DNA of 24,391 nt from a virus, in the IMG/VR virus record IMGVR_UViG_3300047476_002048, positions 1 to 24,391 of that record. The stretch is one strand, 5' to 3'. Position numbers and translations under genes: made by a program. Under the pieces are notes generated by a model. That model was not told the DNA's origin. It saw nothing but the letters and a program-made list of their open reading frames with translations, and made no database searches. Shown one piece after another: positions 1 through 15,158 of this stretch; position 1 is the first letter of the stretch, and each line of letters starts with the position of its first letter.

Positions 1-20
1 GTATGGGAGCGCTCCCATAC
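1..20. repeat. Perfect 20-bp palindrome at left edge
   Basis: GTATGGGAGCGCTCCCATAC equals its own reverse complement. Its right half begins the 29-bp tandem array. Its left half matches the inverted form of the same unit rather than the GGTCCGGAGC that precedes every other copy. The array therefore appears to change orientation here (head to head), with the rest lying outside the window. It could be a real telomere-like or cruciform structure, or a fold-back artefact at a contig end. Confidence 0.85.
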
Positions 21-211
21 GCCGGGAGTGGTCCGGAGCGCTCCCATACGCCGGGAGTGGTCCGGAGCGCTTCCATACGCCGGGAGTGGTCCGGAGCGCT
101 CCCATACGCCGGGAGTGGTCCGGAGCGCTCCCATACGCCGGGAGTGGTCCGGAGCGCTCCCATACGCCGGGAGTGGTCCGGAGCGCTCCCATACGCCGGG
201 AGTGGTCCGTT
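9..211. repeat. 29-bp tandem repeat array, 7 copies
   Basis: Seven head-to-tail copies of a 29-bp GC-rich unit start at 9, 38, 67, 96, 125, 154 and 183. The only variant is C to T in the third copy, at 71-72, and the last copy loses its final bases. Each unit carries two dyads: the palindrome GGAGCGCTCC and a hairpin CTCCC-7 nt-GGGAG. There are no spacers, so this is not a CRISPR. Near-identity of copies suggests recent expansion or functional constraint, such as binding by a partition, packaging or replication protein. Because 29 is not a multiple of 3, the array is open in several frames, and the apparent reading frames across it are a by-product. Confidence 0.95.
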
Positions 212-264
212 GTATGGTATAGAAAAAGGCTAGAAAAAAAGTTGGAGAAAATGTTTTTAGTCCG

Positions 265-293
265 TTGACACAGTCCGGTTTTTATGGTACGAT
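265..293 (+). promoter_or_regulatory. Strong sigma70-type promoter
   Basis: A perfect -35 TTGACA (265-270) is separated by exactly 17 bp from TACGAT (288-293), a 4/6 match to TATAAT. Transcription would start near 300 and run toward the gene at 587, giving a leader of nearly 290 nt. The -35 lies inside a GTTGACA motif that also occurs in the origin and in other control regions, so a regulator or initiator could compete for it. Confidence 0.7.
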
Positions 294-510
294 CAAAGAT
301 CCGGTTGAAAACCGCTATGCACTTTTTGCGTAGCTGACTATGACTTTTTTGCGTAGGCCTCGCAAATCTTGCGGAGAAGGTTTGTAAAAAATACCCACGC
401 CGGAGAAAAAAGTCTAGGGGGGTCAAGCTCCCAGAAAAAAGTCCCTATATTTTGGGAGGCATTTGAATTTCCTGGCAAATTTTCAGAAACAAAAAGACAA
501 TCTAAGATAG

Positions 511-538
511 TTGACACCTTTTATCGTTACAGTGTAAT
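511..538 (+). promoter_or_regulatory. Candidate second promoter for the 587 gene
   Basis: TTGACA at 511-516 is followed after 16 bp by TGTAAT (533-538). TAATCA at 18 bp is an alternative -10. The placement, just before a short hairpin and the ribosome-binding site of the 587 gene, fits a promoter, but the -10 is weaker than that of the promoter at 265-293. Confidence 0.4.
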
Positions 539-548
539 CATAGCAGTA

Positions 549-568
549 GAGAGTGGCGTGACACTCTC
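549..568 (+). promoter_or_regulatory. 5' leader hairpin upstream of the 587 gene
   Basis: GAGAGTG (549-555) and CACTCTC (562-568) form a perfect 7-bp stem with loop GCGTGA, ending 10 nt before the Shine-Dalgarno sequence TTGGAGG. A nearly identical hairpin stands at 1661-1680 in front of another gene. A 5' hairpin there could stabilise the mRNA or bind a regulator. Confidence 0.55.
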
Positions 569-586
569 GTTTTCTTGGAGGCCAAT

Positions 587-1441
587 ATGACACCCGTTCG
601 CACAGACATTCATCGACCATCTGCAATTCAGCCGCAAGACTACGATTTCGTGGGCATCTGGTATGACCCACAGGAAGAGACCGAAGTTGGCGGTGCTTTT
701 ATGCTCAGACTCGAGCGTGAAAAGATCCAAGCCCACATGAATCAGAGCGGTGGGCGCTGGGCTACTCACGAGCACGGCGGAACGTGCCAGTGCTGCGGAG
801 CTACCGCTCAATACCTTGCTGTATTCCATCACCAGTTCGCCAACGAATATATTCGCATTGGCGAGCTCTGCACGGGCAAGATGCACAAGGCGTGTGCCGC
901 AGCGTTCGCTTCAGCTCGTCGCTCTGTATCCAACGCTCGGAAAGCAGTTGCGGGGAAGCGCAAGGCTCAACTTATCCTTTCCGACTTGGGACTATCTCAA
1001 GCGTGGGAGTTGTACAACACGAAAGGCAAGCCGGACCTTTACGAGGAGAACACGGTCACTGACATGGTTCGCAACCTTGTGAAGTACGGAGGCCTCTCAG
1101 AGAAGCAGGAAGCGTTTTTGCGTAAGCTCATAATGACCATCAACTCACGGGCCGAGATAGCAGCGAAGCGAGCTGCGGAGAAGGCTGCAGCGCTCGACTG
1201 CCCAAAGGGTCGTATGGTCATTACAGGCACGGTTCTTTCGACCAAGATGTCGGACGGCGTGTACGGGAGCGTTCTTAAGATGCTCGTGAAGACCCCTGAC
1301 GGCTACACGGTTTACGGCACGGTGCCGTCAGGGCTTGAGGCCGAGAAGGGCGCTGTAGTGACCTTTAAGGCGACTCTTGAGCCGTCCGACAAAGATCCGA
1401 AGCACGGCTACTTTTCACGACCGATCGCGCAAAAGCAGTAA
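587..1441 (+). CDS. Conserved hypothetical phage/plasmid protein with Cys-rich N-terminal region
   Basis: A 284-residue protein; I do not recognise the family. The start is the ATG preceded by CTTGGAGGCCAAT; an in-frame TTG four codons upstream lies inside that ribosome-binding site and is rejected. The N-terminal third holds a cysteine/histidine cluster (C67, C69, C70, H81, H82, C95, C103) that could bind zinc. A Lys/Ala-rich helical middle (about 185-200) follows. The C-terminal 80 residues alternate short hydrophobic strands and glycines and might be an OB-like fold, which is inference only. It is the first gene after the repeat array, has its own promoter and leader hairpin, and is separated from the next gene by a hairpin at 1450-1479. 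A nucleic-acid-binding role is possible but not shown. Confidence 0.8.
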   Translation: MTPVRTDIHRPSAIQPQDYDFVGIWYDPQEETEVGGAFMLRLEREKIQAHMNQSGGRWATHEHGGTCQCCGATAQYLAVFHHQFANEYIRIGELCTGKMHKACAAAFASARRSVSNARKAVAGKRKAQLILSDLGLSQAWELYNTKGKPDLYEENTVTDMVRNLVKYGGLSEKQEAFLRKLIMTINSRAEIAAKRAAEKAAALDCPKGRMVITGTVLSTKMSDGVYGSVLKMLVKTPDGYTVYGTVPSGLEAEKGAVVTFKATLEPSDKDPKHGYFSRPIAQKQ

Positions 1442-1449
1442 AGGTTTTA

Positions 1450-1479
1450 GCCCACACGCTCGATAGTGGGTGTGTGGGC
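1450..1479 (+). promoter_or_regulatory. Hairpin between the 587 and 1502 genes
   Basis: GCCCACAC (1450-1457) pairs perfectly with GTGTGGGC (1472-1479) across a 14-nt loop. No T-tract follows, so it is not a classical intrinsic terminator. It lies 22 nt before the start at 1502 and may act as an mRNA stability or processing element. Its CCCAC-GCT core partly resembles the leader just before the 1661-1680 hairpin. Confidence 0.45.
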
Positions 1480-1501
1480 AGTTAATGACTAGGAGGCAAC
1501 T

Positions 1502-1642
1502 ATGAGAACAGCAAACATCGTTATGTGTACCATCACCGCAATCCTTTTCACTATCTGGTGCATCCAGAAGGTGGAGTACGCAATGAGACCGGACGGAGTT
1601 AAAAAGTCTTCTTATTCCGTTGACACGCTAATGGAGGTGTGA
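1502..1642 (+). CDS. Small single-pass membrane protein (46 aa)
   Basis: It has a textbook initiation site, TAGGAGGCAACTATG. Residues about 4-20 form a hydrophobic segment rich in Ile, Leu, Phe and Trp, followed by a charged tail, so a single inner-membrane pass is likely. Function is unknown. Its 3' end contains GTTGACA (1619-1625), a motif repeated in control regions of this window. It is one of several single-TM microproteins encoded here. Confidence 0.6.
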   Translation: MRTANIVMCTITAILFTIWCIQKVEYAMRPDGVKKSSYSVDTLMEV

Positions 1643-1660
1643 GAAGGTCGACCCACGCTA

Positions 1661-1680
1661 GAGAGTGACGTGACGCTCTC
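1661..1680 (+). promoter_or_regulatory. 5' leader hairpin upstream of the 1702 gene
   Basis: GAGAGTG (1661-1667), loop ACGTGA, CGCTCTC (1674-1680). Compared with the hairpin at 549-568, one stem pair has changed from U-A to U-G, so pairing is kept while the sequence differs. The loop differs by one base. The Shine-Dalgarno AGGAGG follows 11 nt later. Confidence 0.55.
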
Positions 1681-1701
1681 AAGCAATTTTAGGAGGCAAG
1701 T

Positions 1702-1869
1702 ATGACAAAGAAACTTTACAAGGTAACTCGGCTCTTCATCGGTGGAAGTCTCAAGAGACTTACGCACACTGAAGTAACCTCTGTTCAATTCAAGGTTGGG
1801 TTCGTATGCAAGAAGCCATGCGGCGCAGCATCAAGCCCCTACGTCATCATCGCAGTAGAGGAGGCGTAA
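1702..1869 (+). CDS. Hypothetical protein (55 aa)
   Basis: It is preceded by the strong site TTTAGGAGGCAAGTATG and by the leader hairpin at 1661-1680. The short protein ends with predicted strands and carries a Cys pair in the motif VCKKPCG; no membrane segment is seen. Its stop is only 4 bp before the next ATG, and the last codons (GAGGAGGCG) supply that gene's ribosome-binding site, so the two are translationally coupled. Function unknown. Confidence 0.55.
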   Translation: MTKKLYKVTRLFIGGSLKRLTHTEVTSVQFKVGFVCKKPCGAASSPYVIIAVEEA

Positions 1870-1873
1870 GGCC

Positions 1874-2158
1874 ATGACAATCGCACAGACAATCTTTGAG
1901 CAGTTGGGTGGAGGGCGCTTCGTCGTCATGACGGGCGCTCGAGCGTTCGTATCGACGGGCAAGGGATTGAGGTTCCGTCTCCCGTGCCGCAAAGCGAACG
2001 TGGTGGAGATTACCCTCACGCCAGCTGACGAATACGACATGCGGTTCTCGCTCGTCCGTGCCGGGAACGTGAAGGTAGTGCAGGAGTACAACGGCGTTTA
2101 CTGGGACCAGCTGCAGTCGCTCTTCACGAGCGTGACAGGACTTTACACAAGGCTATAG
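1874..2158 (+). CDS. Conserved small phage/plasmid protein (94 aa)
   Basis: The sequence begins with an EQLGGGRFVVMTGA motif, continues with a basic RLPCRK stretch and a TLTPADEYDMRF strand, and ends with a helix and GLYTRL. I recall this arrangement from small proteins often carried on plasmids, integrative elements and phages, usually annotated as hypothetical. No catalytic motif is evident. It is coupled to the 1702 gene upstream and followed 9 bp later by the 2168 gene, so these form one transcription unit. The family resemblance is from memory. Confidence 0.7.
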   Translation: MTIAQTIFEQLGGGRFVVMTGARAFVSTGKGLRFRLPCRKANVVEITLTPADEYDMRFSLVRAGNVKVVQEYNGVYWDQLQSLFTSVTGLYTRL

Positions 2159-2167
2159 GAGGCAACT

Positions 2168-2689
2168 ATGAGACTAAAGATAGACAGAGACTACAGACGA
2201 TCGCGGGAGCTCGCTCCCTACCTATGCTGGGACGGCGACATGCCACGTCCGGTTATGCTGACCGTGGACATGACAAACGGCGAGGCCTTTCTCGCCACCT
2301 TGCCTGACGGAGGCGTATGCCTCCCAGAGGGGCTTAAAACCTTCCCCGTTGACCCATGCCTGACGGTTAACGGCATCGACCAGCTCTTCGCATTTCCAGG
2401 CGTTGAGGACGCTCTCCAGGGTGTTCTCGATGGCGACAAGGAGTCCGAGGCATTCCTGTGGGAGATGGCGTCCTCCGGGCTCTACGAGCGCCTTGAGGGC
2501 CTACAGCCGATGGAGCCGTGGGAGTACGCACAGTCCCACCCCCTGGAGGTCAACGAAGGCGAGAGCATCGAAGAGGCCGCTGAGCGCATCGTAGCAGAGG
2601 CGCTTGAAGACCTCGTGTACCTGAGAGCTATCGACGTTGAGTGCCACCTCGAAGACGAAAGTGACGAGGGCCTTGAGGACGAAGAGTAA
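2168..2689 (+). CDS. Acidic hypothetical protein (173 aa)
   Basis: The start follows TAGGAGGCAACTATG, whose AGGAGG overlaps the previous gene's stop region. The N-terminal 70 residues look like a small beta-rich domain. The rest is helical and strongly acidic, finishing in a run of Glu/Asp with almost no balancing Lys. The net charge should be strongly negative. Small acidic phage proteins include DNA mimics that block restriction enzymes, but no known anti-restriction motif is recognised, so that is speculation. Its neighbours are plasmid/phage accessory genes. Confidence 0.7.
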   Translation: MRLKIDRDYRRSRELAPYLCWDGDMPRPVMLTVDMTNGEAFLATLPDGGVCLPEGLKTFPVDPCLTVNGIDQLFAFPGVEDALQGVLDGDKESEAFLWEMASSGLYERLEGLQPMEPWEYAQSHPLEVNEGESIEEAAERIVAEALEDLVYLRAIDVECHLEDESDEGLEDEE

Positions 2690-2711
2690 CCCTATATTTT
2701 TGGAGGCAATT

Positions 2712-3485
2712 ATGAACCTAGTGAATTTTATGGACCTAAGCCAGAAGGAGACCGTAAGGGCCTCCACCCCTTACGCCAACCTGAGTGACGAGTACTCGAT
2801 GGTCTCAACGGCTGACATCCTCGAGACTTTTAGGGCCGACGGCTGGGTGCCGACGGACTACCGGGAGAAGAAGGTTCGTGTGGCAGAGCGCATCGGCAAG
2901 CAGCAGCATTGCATCGTGCTCACACGCACGGACGCTGAGGGCTCTATGGGCTCTACGGTTCCACGCATCATGCTGAAGAACAGTCACGATGGGACAAGTA
3001 GTCTCCAGCTCCTCTCGGGTCTTTTTGAGCGCATTTGCGCCAATGGGCTCGTAGTAGGTGCGAGCGCTGAGGATGTCCGGTTTCGTCACCTTGGCTTGAC
3101 TGAGGAGACCATCCGGGTAGGGATTCAGAGAGTCACATCGTCGCTAGAGAGGGCCATAAATCTTTCTGACAGGATGAAGGCTATCACCCTCGACGACAGA
3201 GAGCGGCTGGAGTTCTCTGAGAAGGTCATCAACATGGTATGGGGCGGGACTGACTATAGAATTGCTCCGACTGCCCTGCTTTGGAACCATCGCCAGGAGC
3301 AGCGGGTGCCGACGCTCTGGAACACCTTTAACACGGTGCAGGAGCGAATCATCCGGGGGGGCGTCCCTCAGTACCGATTAAACGGTACGTCGATACGCTC
3401 AAGGGAGGTTAAGGCCATTGACCGTTCGATCTCGCTCAACCAGTTGATGTGGGACATTGCGGAGGATGTATGTACAAAGAATTAG
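2712..3485 (+). CDS. DUF932 family phage/plasmid-like protein
   Basis: A 257-residue protein. The hallmark of the family is visible in the first half: QQHCIVLTR, then PRIMLKNSHDGTSSLQLLSG, then an ICANGLVVG block. DUF932 proteins are common on plasmids and phages, are often annotated 'phage/plasmid-like protein', and have no settled biochemical role. The start is the ATG after CTATATTTTTGGAGGCAATT; an upstream in-frame start would overlap the previous gene and lacks a ribosome-binding site. The length is within but toward the short side of the family. The 3' end overlaps the next gene by 16 nt, so the two are coupled. Confidence 0.85.
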   Translation: MNLVNFMDLSQKETVRASTPYANLSDEYSMVSTADILETFRADGWVPTDYREKKVRVAERIGKQQHCIVLTRTDAEGSMGSTVPRIMLKNSHDGTSSLQLLSGLFERICANGLVVGASAEDVRFRHLGLTEETIRVGIQRVTSSLERAINLSDRMKAITLDDRERLEFSEKVINMVWGGTDYRIAPTALLWNHRQEQRVPTLWNTFNTVQERIIRGGVPQYRLNGTSIRSREVKAIDRSISLNQLMWDIAEDVCTKN

Positions 3486-3670
3486 TAGAGATGGCTAAGA
3501 AGGCGGAGATTCCCGAGGTGCTTGAGGCTGTCGCTGCAGCCATCTCCGACCATGCTTCCCGACAGCCACAGGACGAGAAGTTCGACTGGTACCGGATGGT
3601 CCACGAGCTCCGAGAGATCGCGGCGACCGCTCGGGAGTATGAGCAACATTTTGCCGGGAGGCGGGGGTAG
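3470..3670 (+). CDS. Small helical protein (66 aa)
   Basis: The start ATG lies inside the end of the DUF932 gene, with GGAGG just upstream. The protein is almost entirely predicted helix, with alternating Glu/Lys/Arg and Ala, and ends with AGRRG. No family is recognised. It is the last gene of the left + strand cluster, followed within 20 bp by two intrinsic terminators. Confidence 0.6.
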   Translation: MYKELVEMAKKAEIPEVLEAVAAAISDHASRQPQDEKFDWYRMVHELREIAATAREYEQHFAGRRG

Positions 3671-3682
3671 CTCGTTTTTCCA

Positions 3683-3710
3683 CCCCCCTCCGAGTAAAAT
3701 TGGAGGGGGG
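3683..3710 (+). terminator. Intrinsic terminator 1 of the left gene cluster
   Basis: CCCCCCTCC (3683-3691) pairs with GGAGGGGGG (3702-3710) over a 10-nt loop. The stem is perfect, 9 bp and G+C-rich, and is followed by TATTTTATT. Confidence 0.85.
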
Positions 3711-3747
3711 TATTTTATTCATCAGACCCCTCCCTATATTTACCTTT

Positions 3748-3772
3748 AGCCCCCTTCCTGGGGGCTTTTTTT
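3748..3772 (+). terminator. Intrinsic terminator 2 of the left gene cluster
   Basis: AGCCCCC (3748-3754), loop TTCCT, GGGGGCT (3760-3766), then a run of seven T (3766-3772). A second strong terminator only 38 bp after the first insulates the following origin-like DNA from transcription, which is typical of replication origins. Confidence 0.9.
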
Positions 3773-3775
3773 ATG

Positions 3776-3787
3776 GGGGGTACCCCC
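3776..3787. repeat. 12-bp palindrome GGGGGTACCCCC
   Basis: A perfect palindrome lying between the last terminator and the first iteron. Its 10-bp core GGGGTACCCC recurs at 4816-4825 on the far side of the origin-like DNA. Confidence 0.7.
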
Positions 3788-3795
3788 TCCATGTA

Positions 3796-3854
3796 TCAAC
3801 GGATTACCGTGGGGAACCTTTCGGTATCAACAGATTCCCACGGTAATCCGTTGA
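3796..3854. repeat. 18-bp perfect inverted repeat built from iterons
   Basis: The 18-bp arm at 3796-3813 is the exact reverse complement of 3837-3854. Each arm contains the iteron TCAACGGATTACCG. The 23-bp spacer holds a degenerate copy, TATCAACAGATT. Arms of this length could extrude as a cruciform or bind a dimeric initiator. Confidence 0.85.
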
Positions 3855-4005
3855 CTCTTTTGCGGTAATCCGTTGACACGTGCCTTTGTAACTACCTGAT
3901 GACTGGTTCGTTTTTGGCACTTTTGCGGTAATTGGTTGACACAACACGACCTAATTTCAACTACTTGCAAGAGAATTGTCAACAGATTACCGCAAAAGAG
4001 TCAAC
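3850..4005. repeat. 27-bp inverted repeat in the origin
   Basis: The 27-bp arm 3850-3876 is the reverse complement of 3979-4005 with a single mismatch (iteron position 6, G versus A). Each arm has a full iteron plus a flanking CAAAAGAGTCAAC block, i.e. a second GTTGAC half-site. A further iteron at 3926-3939 lies between the arms. Confidence 0.85.
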
Positions 4006-4118
4006 AGGATTAACGAAATAAAAACATGACCTAGGGGGGGGAGGGTAACCTCTCGTCAGGTACTTACACGGATTTTTCTGCCAGCTCTGCCAGCGCTCTG
4101 CCAACCAGGGTGGCAGAG

Positions 4119-4127
4119 TTATCCACA
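4119..4127 (+). other. DnaA box 1
   Basis: TTATCCACA, an exact match to the consensus DnaA-binding site, directly following TGGCAGAG. Confidence 0.85.
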
Positions 4128-4174
4128 GGATTAACCAGTAGTAATCATTGCACTTGTTCTCTTTTTTGCTTGAG

Positions 4175-4183
4175 TTATCCACA
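4175..4183 (+). other. DnaA box 2
   Basis: Exact TTATCCACA, followed by GGCTGCCAG. Unlike the other three boxes, it is not preceded by the TGGCAGAG element. Confidence 0.85.
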
Positions 4184-4309
4184 GGCTGCCAGCTGAAAGT
4201 CAAACTAAGGTACCTTTTTTTTCTACGATATTCAGTTGATACAAACTAAAAAGATTTACGCCTAAAAAAACTAAGGCCTTTCCCGCTTTTGGCAAAACCT
4301 CTGGCAGAG

Positions 4310-4318
4310 TTATCCACA
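4310..4318 (+). other. DnaA box 3
   Basis: Exact TTATCCACA directly following TGGCAGAG (4302-4309), on the right of the AT-rich stretch. Confidence 0.85.
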
Positions 4319-4357
4319 GGTTGGCCTCTTTACTCAATGATACTGGCACCTTAGCCC

Positions 4358-4366
4358 TGTGGATAA
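4358..4366 (-). other. DnaA box 4 (inverted)
   Basis: TGTGGATAA on the top strand, i.e. TTATCCACA on the bottom strand. It faces box 3 and is followed by CTCTGCCAG, so the composite unit is exactly inverted relative to boxes 1 and 3. Confidence 0.85.
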
Positions 4367-4514
4367 CTCTGCCAGCGCTCTAAAAACGGCTGGCAGAGCT
4401 CTGGCAGAGCTGGCAGAGAAGACAGGGAATGTCGAGGCACTACAAGTAGTTATGGCGTAAGTGCCTGAATCAGCCCTCTGGCAAACCTCCTACAGGTGGG
4501 ATACATCACCCCTC

Positions 4515-4793
4515 ATGAGCGACCACGAAACAATCATTCTCATCAACGACGGGGACATCTCGGAAGGCTTCTTCTGCTTTAGCACCACGAAGGCTGTGCA
4601 GTTCGCCAAGCTTTGCAAGCGGGTTGGAGGCGAAGAAAACCTTCTCGCCGTCGCTACCTCGACACATGGTGGCAAAATCACCTCCTGGGTATGCAAAGTG
4701 CCCCTGAAGTACCTCTCCAAGCGGAACTGGAGCATAGGCCCCAAGCGTAAAGGCTCTACAATCCCTCCAACACGCCCTCCAGTGCAGGCTTGA
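4515..4793 (+). CDS. Hypothetical protein next to the origin (92 aa)
   Basis: A 92-residue basic protein of unrecognised family, with an N-terminal strand-rich part (residues 5-20), a helix (about 24-38) and a basic Pro-rich tail. An in-frame GTG at 4461 would add 18 residues; neither start has a good ribosome-binding site, and I prefer the ATG. Lying directly right of the DnaA-box region, it could be an origin-associated factor, but nothing in the sequence proves that. Confidence 0.5.
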   Translation: MSDHETIILINDGDISEGFFCFSTTKAVQFAKLCKRVGGEENLLAVATSTHGGKITSWVCKVPLKYLSKRNWSIGPKRKGSTIPPTRPPVQA

Positions 4794-4813
4794 GCGACGA
4801 TCTCCATCGACCC

Positions 4814-4827
4814 TAGGGGTACCCCTA
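4814..4827. repeat. 14-bp palindrome TAGGGGTACCCCTA
   Basis: Perfect palindrome in the gap before the VRR-NUC gene. Its core GGGGTACCCC is identical to that of 3776-3787, so the two flank the origin segment and the 4515 gene about 1 kb apart. Confidence 0.65.
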
Positions 4828-4905
4828 CCCCAGTGGCTTTAGTCGCTCTACGGGCCTTCTAGCGCCTTCTTGCCCTCGCCGCCCGCTGGTGCTACGTCCC
4901 GACAC

Positions 4906-5265
4906 ATGGCTCCACGGGTCTCTGAACACACTGAGCAGTCTCGGTTTTTCGCCATCCTTCGACGGCTCAAGCACCCGTGGGCGCAGTGGGCCTTTGCCAT
5001 CCCCAACGGCTTCCTGGACTCCAAGTCCAAGAGAATCAGAGCCTGGAGGGAAGGCGTCCTCTCTGGGACCCCCGACGTATTCATCCCTTTCCCTTCTAAG
5101 GGCTTCCACGGCCTCTTCATTGAATTCAAAGCACAGGGGGGCACCCTCTCTATACCCCAGAGGGAATTTCTCGCCTACGCTCGTTCTGCGGGCTATAAAG
5201 CCGAAGTGGTCTTTTCCCTCCGAGAGGCCCTCACGGTGCTCAAAGACTATGCGGAGGCTTCATGA
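4906..5265 (+). CDS. VRR-NUC domain nuclease
   Basis: A 119-residue stand-alone VRR-NUC protein (PD-(D/E)XK superfamily), the usual size for phage members. The order of motifs fits: early Glu (E7/E10 in EHTEQ), AIPNG (31-35), GTPDVFI with D57, then IEFKAQGG with E73 and K75, then a helix starting PQREF and a GYKAEVV strand. D57, E73 and K75 are the expected metal-binding and catalytic residues. Phage VRR-NUCs are thought to cut branched or replication-intermediate DNA. The chosen ATG lacks a clear Shine-Dalgarno site; a TTG at 4870 is possible. Its stop overlaps (ATGA) the start of a 23-codon mini-gene at 5262. Confidence 0.88.
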   Translation: MAPRVSEHTEQSRFFAILRRLKHPWAQWAFAIPNGFLDSKSKRIRAWREGVLSGTPDVFIPFPSKGFHGLFIEFKAQGGTLSIPQREFLAYARSAGYKAEVVFSLREALTVLKDYAEAS

Positions 5266-5333
5266 GCCAAGAGCCCAAGAGCCCGTACATCGATAGCGGT
5301 CATTCACACCCCGGAGGGCCAAAAGTCCCATGA
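5262..5333 (+). CDS. 23-codon coupled mini-gene duplicating the next gene's start
   Basis: It starts in an ATGA overlap with the VRR-NUC stop behind GGAGGCTTC and ends in an ATGA overlap with the start at 5330. Its first 11 residues, MSQEPKSPYID, are identical to those of the 5330 protein; then the sequence diverges and stops. It looks like a partial duplication of the 5330 gene start that now serves as a translational relay. The peptide itself may have no role. Confidence 0.5.
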   Translation: MSQEPKSPYIDSGHSHPGGPKVP

Positions 5334-5361
5334 GCCAAGAGCCCAAGAGCCCCTACATCGA
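5262..5361. repeat. 32-bp direct repeat of a gene start
   Basis: Positions 5262-5293 and 5330-5361 are the same 32-bp sequence except for one base (G/C in the eighth codon). The repeat distance is 68 bp. Both copies begin exactly at an ATG with its own ribosome-binding site. Confidence 0.9.
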
Positions 5362-5641
5362 CTACGACGAGCCCAGCGAGCCGCAACTGCCCGAGAAGCG
5401 TCTCTTGGTAGCCGTCATCCAGCGAGCCATCATCGACTACTCCGTGCCCATCTACGACCGACCGCACCTTCGGTACTGGGCGTCCGCTTGGCTCTTCTCG
5501 GACTCCCGAGAGGTCATGAGTCTTTACTGGATCTGCGCCCACCTCAGCGACGAACCCGAGTGGTTCCAAGAAGCCATCCGTAAGTCCCTAGAGAACAAAA
5601 AGCCTAGCAAAAACAGCGTTATAGTGAGGGTCGATAAGTGA
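5330..5641 (+). CDS. Hypothetical phage protein (103 aa)
   Basis: The start follows CGGAGGGCCAAAAGTCCC and overlaps the stop of the 23-codon mini-gene. The protein has a polar Pro/Glu-rich N-terminus, then a compact helical core with many aromatic residues (RYWASAWLF, SLYWICAHL, EWFQEAIRK) and a basic tail. No family recognised. It is coupled by GTGA to the next gene and belongs to the VRR-NUC to terminase-small transcription unit. Confidence 0.65.
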   Translation: MSQEPKSPYIDYDEPSEPQLPEKRLLVAVIQRAIIDYSVPIYDRPHLRYWASAWLFSDSREVMSLYWICAHLSDEPEWFQEAIRKSLENKKPSKNSVIVRVDK

Positions 5642-5808
5642 TAGTCGGGCTGGTTCTCCATATCCTCTTCACAACTTTCGCCCTCTGCTATTTGTCAAAG
5701 CAACTACGGGCTCACGGTTTGGCCATCGTGGCGTTAGCAAAGGCGCTCACGCTGACCATAGAGGCTAAGAAGCGCTTAGAGTCTCGGGAGGACGAACGGT
5801 GGAATTAG
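5638..5808 (+). CDS. Small membrane protein (56 aa)
   Basis: The GTG start overlaps the previous stop (GTGA). Residues 2-19 form a hydrophobic membrane segment; a second weakly hydrophobic stretch (28-42) leads to a charged helical tail. It overlaps the start of the 5799 gene by 10 nt, with the GGGAGGACGAAC before that start forming its ribosome-binding site. The topology resembles small phage membrane proteins of the Rz or holin type, but with terminase-type neighbours the role is open. Confidence 0.55.
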   Translation: MIVGLVLHILFTTFALCYLSKQLRAHGLAIVALAKALTLTIEAKKRLESREDERWN

Positions 5809-6260
5809 ACCAGTGCGTCAACTGCACCCGCTGTCTCCAGAGGAAGCCTGGACGCCAGAAGGGCTATCCGTGCGATGAGGGCTTTAAGGTGGTGGTCGTA
5901 AGCCTCCTCGACCTCCTGCGCCGCCTGTTCTCCAAAAAGCGCTGGAGAGAGCTCCGAGGCCGCATAAAGCCAGGAACCCATAAGAGGGTAAAGGTGATTT
6001 ACCGACCTGAGAGACAGAAGCGGCAGAAAGGCCCTTCAGCTTGGCAGACGGCTAAGAGAACCACCGCCCCCTCTGGCCTTGAGATCTCTTCAGAGTCCCC
6101 ACGGATTGTCACCTCGGCCATCTATGGGCCTAACGCCATGGCACGTAACTTCTTCCCGGATGTGCTCGAATGCCCTCGTATAACTCTTACGGAAAAAGAG
6201 GCTCTTCGCCTCACCATTGAAGACCAAAGACACAAGCTTCGAAAGATGTATCGACTATGA
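5799..6260 (+). CDS. Hypothetical basic protein with N-terminal Cys motif (153 aa)
   Basis: GTG start behind CGGGAGGACGAACG. Residues 6-12 read CVNCTRC and another Cys follows at about 24, a possible small zinc-binding knuckle. A hydrophobic stretch (VVVVSLLDLLRRLF) precedes a very basic middle (about 45-85). The C-terminal part is a Glu/Arg-rich helix. It overlaps the terminase-small-like gene by ATGA. A nucleic-acid-binding role is plausible from charge and context only. Confidence 0.6.
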   Translation: MELDQCVNCTRCLQRKPGRQKGYPCDEGFKVVVVSLLDLLRRLFSKKRWRELRGRIKPGTHKRVKVIYRPERQKRQKGPSAWQTAKRTTAPSGLEISSESPRIVTSAIYGPNAMARNFFPDVLECPRITLTEKEALRLTIEDQRHKLRKMYRL

Positions 6261-6820
6261 GCAAGAAGGCGACCGAGAAGTACATTAACCAACTCTTGGG
6301 CGTAGAAGAGCCATTCTCCTCTTCCGTCGAGAAGACCTCTCCGCTGTCCACAGAGCAGCAAAAATTCATCGACGCCTACACGACAAACGGCGGGATAACT
6401 AAAAGCGCCCTGCGCTCCTCTGGCGTCTCTCGCAGCTCTTTAGAACGCTGGAAAACAGAAGACCAAGAGTTCAAGAAGGCCCTAAAGATTGCCGAGGAGC
6501 ACTGGGTCGAAGAGCTCCGCAAGGCCGCATTCATGAGAGCGCAGGCTAAAAGCGACGTCCTCTTGATGTTCCTCTTGAAGGCGATGAAGCCCGAGGAATT
6601 CGATGATGACGTTCGCAAGCAGCAGTTTGTCGGCCTGAATAGTAACCCGGATAGTATACCCGTGAGGGCGACACTCGTGAGGGATAATAATATACTGGTA
6701 CAGAATATCTCCCTGAGCTCTGAGAGGTCGGCAGAGCTGCGAGACATCCTGAAAGAAGAAGATGCGTTAGAGATAGAAGGAGTACCAACACCCCTCCCCG
6801 AAGACGACCCACAGTTCTGA
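6257..6820 (+). CDS. Terminase small subunit-like HTH protein
   Basis: A 187-residue protein. After a variable N-terminus come QQKFIDAYTTNGGITKSALRSSGVSRSSLERWKTEDQEF (about 34-72, given here only as the region) and then a helical block ending in SDVLLMFLLKAMKPEEF. This order, an HTH that looks for a sequence before a conserved hydrophobic helix, is typical of small terminase subunits and related phBC6A51-type phage HTH proteins. The role would be recognition of phage DNA for packaging. No large terminase gene is visible in this window. It closes the + strand unit and ends at the shared hairpin at 6823-6879. Alternative: a transcription regulator of the same fold. Confidence 0.65.
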   Translation: MSKKATEKYINQLLGVEEPFSSSVEKTSPLSTEQQKFIDAYTTNGGITKSALRSSGVSRSSLERWKTEDQEFKKALKIAEEHWVEELRKAAFMRAQAKSDVLLMFLLKAMKPEEFDDDVRKQQFVGLNSNPDSIPVRATLVRDNNILVQNISLSSERSAELRDILKEEDALEIEGVPTPLPEDDPQF

Positions 6821-6822
6821 TA

Positions 6823-6879
6823 ATCATAAAGCCTCCTAGAGAACACACATACTCAGTATCCTCCAAGAGGCTTTATGAT
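6823..6879. terminator. Bidirectional terminator-like hairpin between convergent genes
   Basis: ATCATAAAGCCTC (6823-6835) is the exact reverse complement of GAGGCTTTATGAT (6867-6879). The 31-nt loop contains a smaller dyad, ATACT-C-AGTAT. The A- and T-runs in the stem serve both directions. It sits 3 bp after the terminase-small-like gene and 11 bp after the helicase stop on the other strand, the expected place for a shared terminator. The long loop is unusual. Confidence 0.65.
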
Positions 6880-6889
6880 GTCAACGAAA

Positions 6890-9160
6890 TTAGAACGGGC
6901 AGTCGCCGTCCTCATCCACTGAGGCAAACACGTCATTCGTGACTCGAATGCCCGAAAACCCTCGTCGATTGCTCCGTCGATCCTTCCTCTTCACAAGCGT
7001 TGGATGAGACGAAATCTCCTGGAAGAACCGCTGCTTATGCTTCGAATGGCGACCTGAGTCCTTGCACCACTCTTTGTACGAGGCCCACAGGTCATCGCCC
7101 GTAACGAAGCTATGATCCATATCAGTGACTTCTATGCACTCCGAAACATATCCTTGGACGCTATCCAACTGTTCGGTGATTTCCTGTATGGCCTCTAACC
7201 CCTTTCGTGCTGTGAACAACTTATCGCCTCGCATGAGCCTTCTGGCCCCTACGAGCGCCCAGTTGAAGATGCCCTGGGTTTCCTGCGCCAACCGCTCCTT
7301 CAGCCCCGTGTCCTCTTGCCCCAGGAAGCTCTTCCAGAACGGAAACACCACCATTCTATTAGTCAGAGCATTCTCATCGTTCAGAAAGTTTGGCAGCTTG
7401 TTACACACAAAGGCTATCTTTACGCCGAGCCGTTGGAACACAACGGTTTGGCCCTTTCTATTTATCCCTACCGGATCATTACTCGCCAACGACTTGATGC
7501 GCTCAGTAGCCACGCCCATGCGGTCTAAAGAGGCTCTCTCCGCATCCTGGAACACGCACAGCTTTCGGCCCATGAGATTCTCAAGTCCGAAGTCGCTTCC
7601 GATAAGAGAGAGCGAGGTCGACGCCGTGTTCTCCCGGCCCACGATGTTCTCGATGACCGAAGCGAGCGTACTCTTCCCGGCTCTCGAAGCCCCTTTGAAC
7701 ACTGCGAACTTCTCCATGCTGCAAGAGGTCAAAAGGCAGTACCCCATCCACAAACGAAGAGACTCGATGAGCTCTGCGTCTCCGTCCCAGATGTTCTCTA
7801 AGAACTTAAGAAACTCAGGGCACTCTCCGTTCTCAACGTACACCATGGGCAAAGAGTGGAAACAGAACCACTCCTTCTGATGCGGAAGTAACTCGCCCGT
7901 CGACACATCGAGAATTCCGTTCTTCACCGTGATGAAGTCCGTACCCTCGACACCATCTTTACGCCAGCACACGTCAGGTATTCCGTGTGGCTTCGAGAGC
8001 TCCATCTTCACAATCTTTCGCACATCGGAGAACATCGAAGCTTTTATGGTCTGGGTAACCTCTTGCGGCATGTCACGGAAGATAAGGCTTTCAATTGTGC
8101 CATCCGTGATAACTCTCCACATTTTCTTTTCTGTGTCATAATGTACAAATTGCCCATCGAAACAATCGACCGTGCCCTTCATTCGCTCAATGAACACTCG
8201 AGCGTTATGCACCGCATGCTTTTTCGAGTACGCCAATACAGGTTTCTCTTCCACCACTACTGGCTCCTCATCAAACACATGCTCTATCGACATATTCCCT
8301 TGGCCTCGCTGGGCATACTTGAACGCATTCTTCACTTTGTCCGCCAACTCTTTTGTGCCCCATGGCGGGCTGCATCGAGGATTATACTCCTCGCCCATCA
8401 GGTCGAATACCTGTCGCTGAGACAATCCGTAGTCTCGGCACATCATAGCAGCCTTCAGAGTTTGCAGGTCTCCTCCTCCCCCTTCGATTGCCGGAGGGAA
8501 TGAGCGCAGAGCGAGTCGTGCGGCGTGAAGGTCTAAGTCTCCGCCACGCTTGTCTTCTTCTTTCTTCCTCTCTACGGGGCGAGGAGTGGAGGTCATCTCG
8601 TCAACTATCCACTGAGGGAGCTCATCTGCCTCTTCGAGAGCATCGAGGAGGTCCAAGCCACGGTCGAACGTGTACATCCCCTCGCCGCTCTGATGCACCG
8701 ATGGCCACGTGACTACTTGGTTGCCGCCGTCGGCTAAGATGTCGACGCCCTTAAATATTCTTGCAGCACTACTACGGCTCTTTAGATCTCCCGTGACAGA
8801 CGACGGATAGCGATAGTACAGATGCATACCGCCGCTTGGGCTTCGCTCGATTATTGGATTGCCGAGATGCATCTCGTGCTCGTCGTACCAACCCGGCTCG
8901 TCGATATCGACGCACACAAGCCTTGATGCCTTTCCGGTCACAAGCCCAATGTTACAGCCACCTTCTTTTGCCCAGACTCGCTCGAGTTCACGGGACAACT
9001 CTTCCCACGTCTGCTTTTTCTTTTGCCATCCGTACTGTGTCGGAGCTTTCCCTCGCTTTACGGAGTTCTGACACTTTGCACTATGAACTGCGATTATCTG
9101 CAGTCCTTGAGCGACGTATTTTTCTGCCACCTCGAAGAGTAGCTCTTTTAATTGGTCCAT
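6890..9160 (-). CDS. Prim-Pol / SF3 (D5-like) primase-helicase
   Basis: A 756-residue fusion. The N-terminal bifunctional primase-polymerase domain (about 10-190) shows VDID (D85, D87) and SPSGGMH (107-113), the catalytic acid pair and the S/GGxH nucleotide motif. A helical primase C-terminal segment follows (about 208-285, IEGGGGD and NPRCSPPW). A D5_N/SF3 helicase comes next: Walker A GASRAGKST (490-498), Walker B VFQDAE (536-541), and a sensor/motif C region with CNKLPNF (586-592). It should prime and unwind DNA at the origin, like P4 alpha or VapE-type proteins. The ATG was chosen for GGGTGAGG six nt upstream; a GTG four codons earlier is the alternative. It lies 18 bp after its upstream partner. 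Confidence 0.92.
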   Translation of the reverse strand: MDQLKELLFEVAEKYVAQGLQIIAVHSAKCQNSVKRGKAPTQYGWQKKKQTWEELSRELERVWAKEGGCNIGLVTGKASRLVCVDIDEPGWYDEHEMHLGNPIIERSPSGGMHLYYRYPSSVTGDLKSRSSAARIFKGVDILADGGNQVVTWPSVHQSGEGMYTFDRGLDLLDALEEADELPQWIVDEMTSTPRPVERKKEEDKRGGDLDLHAARLALRSFPPAIEGGGGDLQTLKAAMMCRDYGLSQRQVFDLMGEEYNPRCSPPWGTKELADKVKNAFKYAQRGQGNMSIEHVFDEEPVVVEEKPVLAYSKKHAVHNARVFIERMKGTVDCFDGQFVHYDTEKKMWRVITDGTIESLIFRDMPQEVTQTIKASMFSDVRKIVKMELSKPHGIPDVCWRKDGVEGTDFITVKNGILDVSTGELLPHQKEWFCFHSLPMVYVENGECPEFLKFLENIWDGDAELIESLRLWMGYCLLTSCSMEKFAVFKGASRAGKSTLASVIENIVGRENTASTSLSLIGSDFGLENLMGRKLCVFQDAERASLDRMGVATERIKSLASNDPVGINRKGQTVVFQRLGVKIAFVCNKLPNFLNDENALTNRMVVFPFWKSFLGQEDTGLKERLAQETQGIFNWALVGARRLMRGDKLFTARKGLEAIQEITEQLDSVQGYVSECIEVTDMDHSFVTGDDLWASYKEWCKDSGRHSKHKQRFFQEISSHPTLVKRKDRRSNRRGFSGIRVTNDVFASVDEDGDCPF

Positions 9161-9178
9161 GGTTTGCCTCACCCTACA

Positions 9179-9700
9179 CTATTCTTTGCCGACTTCGTCT
9201 TCGGCCTCTACAAGCACCGTAGCTACCTTCGTCTTTTTTTTGTAATCACGCACTGGTTTATTTTTGTTATATCGCCAAAGAGTCCCAACTTCGTCGGTTC
9301 TTTGGAAACCACGTTTGTCTGTCTGAGCATAGAAGTCCAATTTGTTGTTCTTCTTTCGCTCAGCGACGAACTCTTTTTTTTCAAGGCGATACAGTCGTAC
9401 TGCCTCCAGTTTGTCTTCGTAATCCTTAAGACGATCTAGCCCTACTGAGTCCGCGATCTCTTGCCATAGGAGATTGATGGCATGAAGTATGAGATCGTTG
9501 CGAGAGATTCCGAAGTGAAGGCACAAAATATTCATGTAGTGCTCAGTCTCTTCAGATAGTTTGAGCTCCGTTCGAATTTTAACGACGTTCCATAATTTCT
9601 TCCTGAACGAGCGTGGAAGCTCTGGCACCTTAACGCCACGACCAAGCTCCTCGAGCTTCGGAGTCCTTTCCTTGAAGTGCTGCTTAAGCCCCTTTGGCAT
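9179..9700 (-). CDS. Basic hypothetical protein upstream of primase-helicase (173 aa)
   Basis: The start has a good site, CAAAGGTGAAAAATG. The protein is strongly charged and Lys-rich, with a helical segment LSEETEHYMNILCLHFGISRNDLILHA region (about 49-75) that has a weak resemblance to ribbon-helix-helix or other small DNA-binding folds, and a Lys-rich C-terminal half. It is the first gene of a two-gene - strand operon with the Prim-Pol/helicase. It may be a replication accessory or regulator. A TGTCAAC motif lies 19 bp upstream of its start, in the divergent control region. Confidence 0.6.
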   Translation of the reverse strand: MPKGLKQHFKERTPKLEELGRGVKVPELPRSFRKKLWNVVKIRTELKLSEETEHYMNILCLHFGISRNDLILHAINLLWQEIADSVGLDRLKDYEDKLEAVRLYRLEKKEFVAERKKNNKLDFYAQTDKRGFQRTDEVGTLWRYNKNKPVRDYKKKTKVATVLVEAEDEVGKE

Positions 9701-9747
9701 TTTTCACCTTTGCAAACGTGTCAACTTTTGATACCACGGAGATACCC
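9701..9747. promoter_or_regulatory. Divergent control region between replication operons
   Basis: The 47-bp gap separates the - strand primase operon from the + strand helicase operon. It contains TGTCAACTTTTGATAC (9719-9734), two half-sites of the motif found in the origin and in the 16419-16465 operator. The gap is too short for two ordinary promoters placed back to back, so promoters may lie inside the coding ends or overlap. No clear -10 pair is seen. Confidence 0.4.
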
Positions 9748-11025
9748 ATGTCGCTATACAAATATCAGCTTGAGGGAATAGAGAAACTTTTTTCCATCGT
9801 CACCGAGCGTGATGAGAGGGCTGCGATGCTGTGCGACCCTCCGGGTGCAGGAAAAACTCCGCAAGCTATTGGGCTACTCAATCGACTAAAGGGCCGCAGC
9901 GCTCTCATAGTTTGTCCGGCAAGTCTTAAAGAGAACTGGAAGCGAGAGGTTCAGAAATGGTCCTGCTATCCTCTTACAGTCCAGGTAGTTAACTCATCGT
10001 CAGAAAAGCTCGATGGTTCCGATGTTACCATCGTGTCGTACAACCTTGCTGTTAGAATACATGAAGCGCTCTGCCAGCGCTCTTACGATCTGCTCGTGTG
10101 CGATGAGTCGCATCTTCTAAAGTCTGCAAGCTCTCAAACCGCTCGCATTGTTCTGGTGCCTCTGTGGTCTCGTTGCACGTATCGACTACTCATGACTGGA
10201 ACACCGTTACCAAATGGAAGAGCAGTGGAGGCATATACCTCTTTCTCTCGATGCTGCCGTGAACACTTTGGCAGCTGGGAGGCATTCAAGAATCGCTACT
10301 GCGTTGAAGAGCGCACAAGATGGGGCGTGAGCTATCCACACTCAAAGAATCTCACGGAGCTCAAAGAGTTCTCCCGCCCATTCATGGTGCGCCGCACAAA
10401 AGCAGAAGTGCTCGGAGAGCTCCCTGGGCTTGTGCGGCAGAATGTCTACATTCGCCTCTCAGAGCTCGATGTGTTTTCCGCTGAAGAGGGCATCGACGTC
10501 GATGCGATTGTCGAAGCAGTGGAGAACGGAGTGCCGCTCGAGAGCGAACATATAACAACGGTTCGAAGAAAACTTGCGATGCTCAAAGCTCCAATGATTG
10601 TCGAAGCTATCAAAGATGCGCTTGAAGAAGTTGAGCAATTAGTGGTTTTCGTGCACCACCGAGAGCTCTATCAGCATCTCATGGAAAATATTTCTGATGC
10701 AGTTGGAATTAACGGGTTGACACATCCAACAGAAAGACAGCAGAATGTTGATACTTTCCAAAGCGGAAAGGCGAAGGTGTTTGTCGCTTCGTTGAAAGCA
10801 GCAAATACAGGGCTAACGCTCACAAAAGCGCACACTCTGTTTATGGCTGAATATGATTGGGTTCCCTCGACCAACGAACAGGCGGAAGGGAGAATCTTTC
10901 GTGTTACGCAGAATGAAATTTGTCGGGTGAAGTATCTTGTAGCCGCTGACAGTCTGGACGAAAAGGTCTTGAAGGTCGTGCAAAGAAAACAACGTCAAAT
11001 TGAAAAAGCATTAGGCGCAACATGA
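9748..11025 (+). CDS. SNF2-type DEAD/DEAH helicase
   Basis: A 425-residue superfamily 2 ATPase. Seen in order: an N-terminal LYKYQLEGI Q-region (3-11), Walker A DPPGAGKT (30-37), motif Ia IVCPASL, motif II DESH (119-122), motif III LLMTGTPLPN (147-156), and in the C-terminal lobe ASLKAANTGLTLT and motif VI QAEGRIFR (378-385). These are the marks of SNF2/SMARCAL1-like phage helicases, which remodel or anneal replication intermediates. The ATG follows CACGGAGATACCC; an upstream in-frame start at 9694 would overlap the divergent gene. Its stop overlaps the next start (ATGA). It opens the long early operon. Confidence 0.92.
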   Translation: MSLYKYQLEGIEKLFSIVTERDERAAMLCDPPGAGKTPQAIGLLNRLKGRSALIVCPASLKENWKREVQKWSCYPLTVQVVNSSSEKLDGSDVTIVSYNLAVRIHEALCQRSYDLLVCDESHLLKSASSQTARIVLVPLWSRCTYRLLMTGTPLPNGRAVEAYTSFSRCCREHFGSWEAFKNRYCVEERTRWGVSYPHSKNLTELKEFSRPFMVRRTKAEVLGELPGLVRQNVYIRLSELDVFSAEEGIDVDAIVEAVENGVPLESEHITTVRRKLAMLKAPMIVEAIKDALEEVEQLVVFVHHRELYQHLMENISDAVGINGLTHPTERQQNVDTFQSGKAKVFVASLKAANTGLTLTKAHTLFMAEYDWVPSTNEQAEGRIFRVTQNEICRVKYLVAADSLDEKVLKVVQRKQRQIEKALGAT

Positions 11026-11615
11026 GAAAACGATCGAGCGGCAAACCCCAAACGGACGTTGGTATATCGGCAAGTAAAATTGTCGATGTCGTGTCACGTT
11101 TCGCACTGCTTCATGCGTACGGAGTTGGGTTGGATGTTTTCAGGCAGCTCCCGGAGCAACAGAGGATGCGAGGAATCGAATATGCGAAGTGGATGTTAGC
11201 ATTCGCTCTCGACGATGAGATTGACTCGGCATACTTGTTCTTCAAAGCATTGCATTGCGATCGCTTTAAGCCGAAAGCGGAAAACTTCGTGTGTAGCGCA
11301 TACTTGGAATACATGTATGGGTATTGGAGGCGATTATCAGGGACGTGCGAGAAGGATGTGCCGCTTGGCGCATACATCGTCGCAGGTCTTCTTAGCGGTC
11401 AGCGCATCTTCTTTACCAAGAAAAGTAAGCCAGGTTTCTACATGACGATTCCCATTAAGCGCCGTACGGCGATGGAGGGATATTTGGAACGGCACTTTGA
11501 CTTCAAGCGTTGGCCTGAAGAGAAGTTTCAGTTTAGAGAATTAGATGATCGAGTAGGCGAAGTGGAGAATTCGCTCCAGAGCGCCGATGCGGTCGAACAA
11601 AAGAAGGAAGAATAG
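11022..11615 (+). CDS. Hypothetical protein (197 aa)
   Basis: It overlaps the SNF2 helicase stop by ATGA. The first 20 residues are basic; then a helical domain rich in aromatics (about 25-115) with Cys at two positions, and a Lys/Glu-rich C-terminal tail. No motif recognised. Placed between the helicase and the ssDNA-binding-type gene with overlaps or 1-bp gaps, it is likely a replication accessory, inferred from position only. Confidence 0.65.
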   Translation: MRKRSSGKPQTDVGISASKIVDVVSRFALLHAYGVGLDVFRQLPEQQRMRGIEYAKWMLAFALDDEIDSAYLFFKALHCDRFKPKAENFVCSAYLEYMYGYWRRLSGTCEKDVPLGAYIVAGLLSGQRIFFTKKSKPGFYMTIPIKRRTAMEGYLERHFDFKRWPEEKFQFRELDDRVGEVENSLQSADAVEQKKEE

Positions 11616-11616
11616 T

Positions 11617-12174
11617 ATGGCAAGTGAATTTGGCGAAAAGATGACTACTCCAACAGGACGTGTATCTTTCCCGTATGTTTTCGAGAAGGCAAAGTCTCTT
11701 GAAGCAGGAAAGGAAGGAAAGTATGAGATTACTCTCTACATTCCTAAGACAGAGGACATCTCAGCTCTTCGCAAGAACCTTGAGACGGTCGCTCGCAAAG
11801 CGTTCGGAGCAAAGTTCGTTTCGCTCGAAAAGCTTAAGCACCCACCAATCAAGGATGGCGACGAGAAAGACCCAAGTGACCCAGCATACGGGCACTGGAT
11901 CATTCGTGCCAAGAGCGCCAAGCGTCCAGTAGTAGTAGATGCTTCACGCACACCAATTGAGTCGAAAGACGCTCTCTACGGTGGATGCTATGGTCGCATC
12001 AACATAACACCTGCAAGCTACCAGATCCCAACGGGCTGGGGCGTAACAATGTATTTGAACGCCGTGCAGAAGGTGAAGGATGGCGAACGATTTGGCGGCG
12101 GCGGAGTAAGCGCTGAAGACGTTTTTGAGGCTCTTGCGGTTGGCGAACCAGTAAGCATCGAGGATAACTTCTAA
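11617..12174 (+). CDS. DUF2815 ssDNA-binding-type protein
   Basis: A 185-residue protein. The features fit DUF2815: TPTGRVSFPYVFEKA near the start, ITLYIPK strand, a central KHPPIKDGDEK loop, GHWIIRAKS, then YGGCYGRINITP and a GWGVTMYLNAVQKVKDGERFGG block, ending with acidic residues and a final Phe. The family is related to phage single-strand DNA-binding proteins such as T7 gp2.5, whose acidic, Phe-ending tail recruits partners. An in-frame upstream ATG at 11587 lies inside the previous gene; the ATG after GAAGGAAGAATAGT is preferred. It is coupled to the next gene by TAATG. Confidence 0.85.
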   Translation: MASEFGEKMTTPTGRVSFPYVFEKAKSLEAGKEGKYEITLYIPKTEDISALRKNLETVARKAFGAKFVSLEKLKHPPIKDGDEKDPSDPAYGHWIIRAKSAKRPVVVDASRTPIESKDALYGGCYGRINITPASYQIPTGWGVTMYLNAVQKVKDGERFGGGGVSAEDVFEALAVGEPVSIEDNF

Positions 12175-14411: not shown

Positions 14412-14581
14412 AGACCATCGAAGAACAGGTAAGGCTATACATCTCCGAAGAGTATCACGAGCAACTACTTAGAGAGGTTGGGATAACTGACAGCTTGGTA
14501 GAGAGAGTGTTTCTTGACGGCGTTAAGTTTGGCTACGAGTTGGCAAAGCGAGAGCAGGTAAGGGAGATAGGAAATGACTAA
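14408..14581 (+). CDS. Small protein, member of a tandem family (57 aa)
   Basis: Starts by ATGA overlap. The pattern FLDGVKFGYELAKRE near the C-terminus resembles the F-x-AG-Y motif of the two following proteins, and the three appear to be related. Acidic helical N-terminus, basic C-terminus ending EIGND. Unknown function. Confidence 0.6.
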   Translation: MKTIEEQVRLYISEEYHEQLLREVGITDSLVERVFLDGVKFGYELAKREQVREIGND

Positions 14582-14769
14582 GACACCTGAAGAATTAGTA
14601 GAGGACTGGATACGCAGTCATGCCTCCTATCTTATGCCAATGCGTATTAGAGATACATTTATAGCTGGCTATCACTCAAGAGACGAAGAGATTGCAAAGT
14701 TAAGAGAAGAGATTGCAATGCTCAAGGCAGAGCTGCGGGAGGTTGGAAATGACTAAGACACCTGAAGAA
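14570..14769. repeat. 25-bp direct repeat at the starts of two tandem genes
   Basis: The 25-bp sequence at 14570-14594 recurs at 14745-14769, covering the end of the ribosome-binding site, the ATG and the first codons (MTKTPEE). It marks a recent duplication of at least the gene starts. Confidence 0.85.
14574..14756 (+). CDS. Small protein, tandem family member 2 (60 aa)
   Basis: Starts after AGGGAGATAGGAA. The N-terminus MTKTPEELVED matches that of the 14749 protein. A FIAGYHSRDEE motif and a Glu/Lys-rich coiled-coil-like end (LREEIAMLKAELREVGND) follow. It overlaps the next gene by 8 nt. Such F-x-AG motif proteins are common small phage proteins of unknown role. Confidence 0.65.
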   Translation: MTKTPEELVEDWIRSHASYLMPMRIRDTFIAGYHSRDEEIAKLREEIAMLKAELREVGND

Positions 14770-14955
14770 CTAGCAGACGAATACACGCAAGAATGGTGGG
14801 GTCATTACCGTGAGGACAATATGACTCTTGCGACACGACAGGCCTTCCTCGCTGGCTACAAGGCTGCCAAGCCAGAAGTAGGCACGAGCGACTACCTACA
14901 GTACCTTTACGTCACCTACCTATGCACCAAAGCAAAAGCAGAGAACAAAGCATAA
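14749..14955 (+). CDS. Small protein, tandem family member 3 (68 aa)
   Basis: It shares MTKTPEELADEY with member 2, then an aromatic part (EWWGHYREDN) and a RQAFLAGYKAAKPE motif, and ends with a Tyr-rich stretch. Strong site CGGGAGGTTGGAA before the ATG. The last 34 nt overlap the 14922 gene. Unknown function. Confidence 0.65.
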   Translation: MTKTPEELADEYTQEWWGHYREDNMTLATRQAFLAGYKAAKPEVGTSDYLQYLYVTYLCTKAKAENKA

Positions 14956-15158
14956 GGTACGAAGGCTGGCTGCTTGTCGAGCAGGAGCCTCCCGTGACGG
15001 GGAACTACATTGTTGCTGTTGAGCCTTACGAGCCTATCGTTGGATTCTTCATCAAAGGGAGAGGGTGGGATCTCGACGACACGATTCACACAGGACTAGA
15101 AGATCGCATTGTGGCGTGGATGCCACTCCCGGAGATTAGATATGGCAGAAGAAATTAA
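14922..15158 (+). CDS. DUF551-like protein 2 (78 aa)
   Basis: Residues from about 16 on show the domain pattern: GWLLVEQEPPVTGNYIVAV region, an FFIKGRGWDLDD loop and a terminal AWMPLPEIRYG. It overlaps the previous gene by 34 nt and the DUF2800 gene by 17 nt. The first in-frame ATG is taken; the ribosome-binding site is weak. Unknown role. Confidence 0.65.
   Translation: MHQSKSREQSIRYEGWLLVEQEPPVTGNYIVAVEPYEPIVGFFIKGRGWDLDDTIHTGLEDRIVAWMPLPEIRYGRRN

Follow-up and report, generated by a model that had tools for sequence, protein, structure and literature searches.

A tandem-repeat array at a contig end as a probable allele of a hypervariable, GC-rich minisatellite locus in uncultured tailed phages

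What does it mean when a viral contig begins inside a tandem-repeat array and its first bases appear to run in the opposite direction? The stretch of DNA analyzed here (the window) is the whole of an IMG/VR record, 24,391 bp in length and classed as linear, with position 1 as the contig end. The initial annotation had offered three readings of this edge: a telomere-like hairpin end, a centromere-like partition array, or an assembly problem. The first two fared badly and the third held in part, while a variable repeat locus was not visible from the window. The reading that we consider probable is a hypervariable GC-rich tandem-repeat (minisatellite) locus of which this array represents one allele, and which lies between the operon of the terminase large subunit and the early genes. 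The phages that carry it are tailed and uncultured, their genomes are about 55 kb in size, and the window edge is an assembly break within the repeat locus.

The array and its surroundings in the window

TRF identified a single strong array in the window, at positions 6-209 on the plus strand, consisting of 7.0 copies of the 29-bp unit GGAGCGCTCCCATACGCCGGGAGTGGTCC (98% matches, no indels, score of 401). According to the unit table, the third unit carries one C-to-T change and the other six are identical. The near-identical 29-bp tandem units that had been described at the window edge are thus real. The array has a GC content of 72%. Open reading frames running through it were rejected as genes: since 29 is not a multiple of 3, they are frame-permuted by-products. 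Searches at the array for an intrinsic terminator (hairpin plus T-run) and for known RNA families returned none. Exact searches of viral contigs with the 29-bp unit and with an 18-bp part of it gave no match and therefore no partner contig carrying the far side of the break.

Each 29-bp unit has a dyad spanning its whole length and can be folded as one hairpin. The DNA fold of the whole array had a z-score of -7.4, which is inflated by repetition; the fair null consists of shuffled units repeated in tandem. Under this null, the window's unit folded mildly better than expected (P = 0.027). The same test gave P = 0.002 for the unit of a related contig, G002, and P values of 0.13 or more, not significant, for the other arrays. 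Because most arrays were not significant, a hairpin function for the whole class was dropped. The 29-bp allele, as opposed to the class, may have a hairpin or binding function, and its dyad could hint at protein binding.

To the right of the array, a spacer (210-500) that is little conserved in comparison with G002 and a second related contig, G003, leads to the early promoter. A sigma-70-like promoter match (265-293, plus strand; TTGACA-17-TACGAT with TG), found by consensus scan only, lies about 55 bp from the array. The leader that follows, ATAGTTGACACCTTTTATC ... GTAATCATAGCAGTAGAGAGTG-CGTGA--CTCTC (505-569, plus strand), is the same in G002 and G003 and likely represents an early promoter with a leader hairpin. 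It stands ahead of the first gene right of the array (587-1441, plus strand), which has no assigned function and serves as a syntenic anchor, being 63-64% identical in G002 and G003. Promoter and leader are kept in these two relatives, whereas array and spacer are not. The window contains two copies (544-568 and 1656-1680) of a 25-bp leader element with a GAGAGTG...CTCTC hairpin. Both copies precede an AGGAGG-like ribosome-binding site, and the copy at 544-568 is conserved in G002 and G003.

The remainder of the window encodes a Prim-Pol/D5 primase, an SNF2-type helicase, a VRR-NUC nuclease, a DUF932 protein, and a small-terminase-like protein. The plus strand also encodes an Enc34-type single-stranded DNA (ssDNA)-binding or Gp2.5-like ssDNA-annealing protein (11587-12174; PF10991, 1.2e-36; phrog_112, 3.2e-49) and a DUF2800/PD-(D/E)XK exonuclease (15109-15930; PF10926, 5.2e-50; phrog_69, 2.1e-54). 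Lysis-like genes, recognized by position, size, and sequence features rather than by family search, occupy the minus strand at the right end. Three IMG/VR contigs contain primase relatives at 92% identity: G001 (51,734 bp), G002 (27,068 bp), and G003 (25,294 bp). There was no close named phage, with the best primase and terminase matches below 60% identity and no megablast match of positions 1-12000 to named phages. A host search with terminase and primase against genome contigs yielded nothing useful, the one match being a distant Treponema MAG at 25% identity.

Other repeats are scattered through the window. A long noncoding stretch at 3790-4420 has many inverted repeats, with arms GGTAATCCGTTGACA at 3850/3977 and TCTGCCAGC at 4074/4388. 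It also contains four copies of TTATCCACAGG, which we take to be DnaA-box-like (at about 4119, 4175, and 4310, and inverted at 4356). This stretch is likely a replication origin, and the G001 contig begins in a region matching it. At 5261-5361, two copies of a start region (CATGAGCCAAGAGCCCAAGAGCCC...) lie 68 bp from each other, so that ribosome-binding site and start codon are repeated; the same region is present 2.7-fold, with a period of about 53 bp, in G001 (1051-1194) and G002. Finally, a 44-bp direct repeat (14562-14605 and 14737-14780; 89% identical) lies at the starts of two neighboring small genes, which suggests a recent gene duplication.

The same interval in related phages

Like the window, the G002 and G003 contigs start inside GC-rich arrays (36-bp units in the former, 20- and 38-bp units in the latter) upstream of their homologue of the gene at 587-1441. 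In G001, the terminase large subunit is followed by 466 bp of 19-bp repeats, then by small genes and by 8-bp arrays that continue to the contig end. Practically the same phage was recovered from another sample (G014; 99.98% identical over 12.4 kb). Contigs of other terminase relatives stop within arrays of 7-bp or 19-bp units, a few hundred bases upstream of terminase. Two contigs cross the interval entirely: G008 (L023) leads from homologues of window positions 2168-3485 through a 16-bp array of 23 copies to terminase, and G010 (L026) connects a VRR-NUC homologue to terminase by way of seven merged arrays. Because one contig in each case runs from early genes to the terminase large subunit, the interval is internal in these phages.

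Two observations concern sequence in and between the arrays. In L026 (6870-7448), a 12-bp array of ATCCGCGCCCGT (6993-7109) sits within an open reading frame and keeps the frame, unlike most arrays. In L015 (15700-17320, corresponding to 49.7-51.3 kb of G001), the genes between arrays lie in CGATCG/GATCG-rich sequence, including GCGATCGC, and the composition looks unlike that of the rest of the phage.

Confinement was quantified in eleven records, some of them near-identical phages, by counting merged arrays with a TRF score of at least 100. Inside the terminase-to-early interval there were 18 such arrays, covering 4,917 of 35,452 bp; the 235,956 bp outside it contained three, which together covered 365 bp. 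This corresponds to 0.51 arrays per kb in the interval and 0.013 per kb elsewhere. The counts are partly dependent, both through the near-identical phages and because a single feature, present in two records of one phage, makes up two of the three outside arrays. GC content was mostly 63-84% in the arrays versus 48-55% in the records. Unit length ranged across the group from 7 to 38 bp, and most lengths (7, 8, 16, 19, 25, and 29) were not multiples of 3. The units were mostly unrelated between phages: a shared unit was limited to G002 and G003 (P = 0.003), and the 29-bp unit had no significant homology to the units of G002, G003, or G001.

Variation was also evident between close relatives. 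L019 and L018 are 99.2% identical, but 56 bp of the 19-bp array have been lost cleanly and in register between them, a change seen between samples. The 466-bp array, on the other hand, is identical in L019 and L030, which come from different samples. Given this clean loss and the identity across samples, the arrays are not assembly noise. In the array of L019 and L030, the core of the unit appears as CCATAG, as CTATGG, and in a palindromic form. Since the core thus occurs in both orientations within one array, small flips at dyads are part of array variation.

We therefore observed a fixed place, confinement, turnover of units, an in-register change of copy number in a relative, and frequent contig ends at this locus. 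Arrays may arise from local seeds and would then grow and shrink through replication slippage or single-strand annealing. The phage's own ssDNA-annealing protein would be a candidate agent of copy-number change, and its exonuclease a candidate agent of single-strand annealing. The arrays are mostly noncoding and their exact sequence seems unimportant; if they have a function, its basis would be their place, GC-richness, or repetitiveness.

The inverted start and competing readings of the array

The perfect 20-bp palindrome that had been reported at the edge is present: positions 1-20 read GTATGGGAGCGCTCCCATAC, the only perfect palindrome of more than 16 bp in the window. Ten-bp palindromes number 28 in the window, and no other one extends to 20 bp. 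The accompanying claim that the first ten bases are an inverted unit requires qualification. The inner 10 bp (6-15) are GGAGCGCTCC, the self-palindromic core of every unmutated unit, and therefore the evidence for inversion resides in bases 1-5 (GTATG), which alone are diagnostic of an inverted partial unit. A five-base match of this kind has a chance of about 1 in 1,000, judged post hoc. Just beyond the right end of the array, GTATGG (212-217, minus strand) is the inverse of the CCATAC in the unit and may be due to chance. Of 29 other contig ends examined, none had an end palindrome longer than 4 bp.

In a simple de Bruijn simulation, k values of 99 or less were unable to cross the 29-bp array, and k values of 127 or 141 produced an end palindrome of 126 or 140 bp (k-1) or a stop inside the array. 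The observed palindrome is 20 bp, versus the k-1 expected from a full mirror or a closed end, although multi-k assembly or end trimming could alter this outcome. The head-to-head start is most simply explained as a short flipped partial unit that arose by template switching at GGAGCGCTCC, or as a fold-back at the contig end. The latter, a fold-back in assembly or library that made the inverted first 10 bases of an otherwise real array, is a credible if tentative explanation and is compatible with the minisatellite locus. Chimeric fold-backs arise at palindromes, and contigs of this group repeatedly end in arrays, which bears out part of the earlier suspicion of an assembly problem; a full mirror, however, predicts 126 or 140 bp rather than 20 bp. 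Moreover, a genuine short inversion is just as possible, a fully assembled array found in two samples contains core flips, and the simple de Bruijn route never yields 20 bp at a k that crosses the array.

As for the array itself, its fixed place and near absence elsewhere could reflect a selected function rather than mere tolerance. We regard it as unlikely, though worth keeping in mind, that the interval acts in cis, conserved in position, through GC-rich repetitiveness instead of sequence and is renewed with unrelated units. Such an element might, for instance, insulate divergent operons from each other or form a barrier between them, or it might serve as a hot spot of recombination or packaging.

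It is more doubtful still that the units form an operator array, to which a phage protein would bind in order to regulate the divergent early and structural promoters. The array does lie between divergent operons, at 55 bp from a promoter-like site and 300 bp from a conserved promoter, and its units have a whole-unit dyad. Yet among relatives it is the promoter and leader that have been kept, and not the array or spacer. Dyads do not characterize the class when judged against shuffled units, and unit length varies from 7 to 38 bp.

A partition centromere, in which a parS-like iteron array is bound by a ParB-like or ribbon-helix-helix protein, is improbable. Array-type centromeres exist on plasmids, and parS/parC-type partition iterons are tandem units with dyads near a promoter, as are the dyad-bearing units here. 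However, the units are wholly different between close relatives, which is hard to square with a cognate binding protein. When the check for partition genes was run, neither the ParA-type ATPase family (AAA_31, PF13614; all controls positive) nor ParB_N (PF02195) was found in any of 14 records of the group, all of them incomplete, in a search directed at these two families rather than at small ribbon-helix-helix adaptors. For all of the families sought here and below, absence from these incomplete records is moderate evidence.

Least likely of all is a hairpin telomere of a linear phage genome at this edge, with a protelomerase resolving the 20-bp palindrome. This is very unlikely even though a perfect palindrome sits at the end of the contig and the record ends at position 1, as at the protelomerase telomeres of N15-type linear phage-plasmids, because the homologous interval is internal to single contigs in G008 and G010, a mirrored end should leave a palindrome k-1 bases long (smaller k values cannot cross), no other examined contig end resembles it, the palindrome is short and within a tandem array, and neither the ResT/TelK catalytic domain of protelomerases (PF16684) nor a tyrosine integrase was detected in the 14 records, including that of the incomplete window phage, with controls positive.

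Relation to described repeat systems

The hypervariable minisatellite locus that we favor resembles bacterial variable-number tandem-repeat (VNTR) or minisatellite loci, which have a fixed place, a variable copy number, and slippage-type change. It differs from them in that the unit itself, and not its number alone, is replaced between relatives. We found no description of this locus in the literature on phage tandem arrays, with subscription journals outside the coverage of the search.

By analogy, the closest described pattern is that of Borg tandem repeats, which are unique to each locus, evolve rapidly, and end contigs (PMC9879509, PMC9605863). The phage arrays share with them head-to-tail repeats unique to each place with fast turnover (PMC9879509, PMC9605863), copy-number change between near-identical genomes (here the 56 bp that separate L019 and L018, in a relative's array), contigs that end in repeats, and copies that are intergenic or, in some cases, genic and in frame. 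Borgs, in contrast, are archaeal elements of 0.6-1 Mb with long inverted ends and perfect, A-enriched repeats across the genome. Here the phage is about 55 kb and the repeats are GC-rich and often imperfect. Instead of the genome-wide scatter of a large linear archaeal element, we found arrays confined to a single phage interval.

These findings indicate that, across a phage clade, one fixed place can repeatedly host tandem arrays that are unrelated in sequence, and the repeat locus explains why assemblies of these phages break there. They also call for caution: an array with an inverted start at the end of a contig should not be taken for a telomere. A character that is conserved in position and variable in sequence is unusual and testable, and these phages offer a small system, far below Borg size, for weighing selection of such arrays against mere tolerance.
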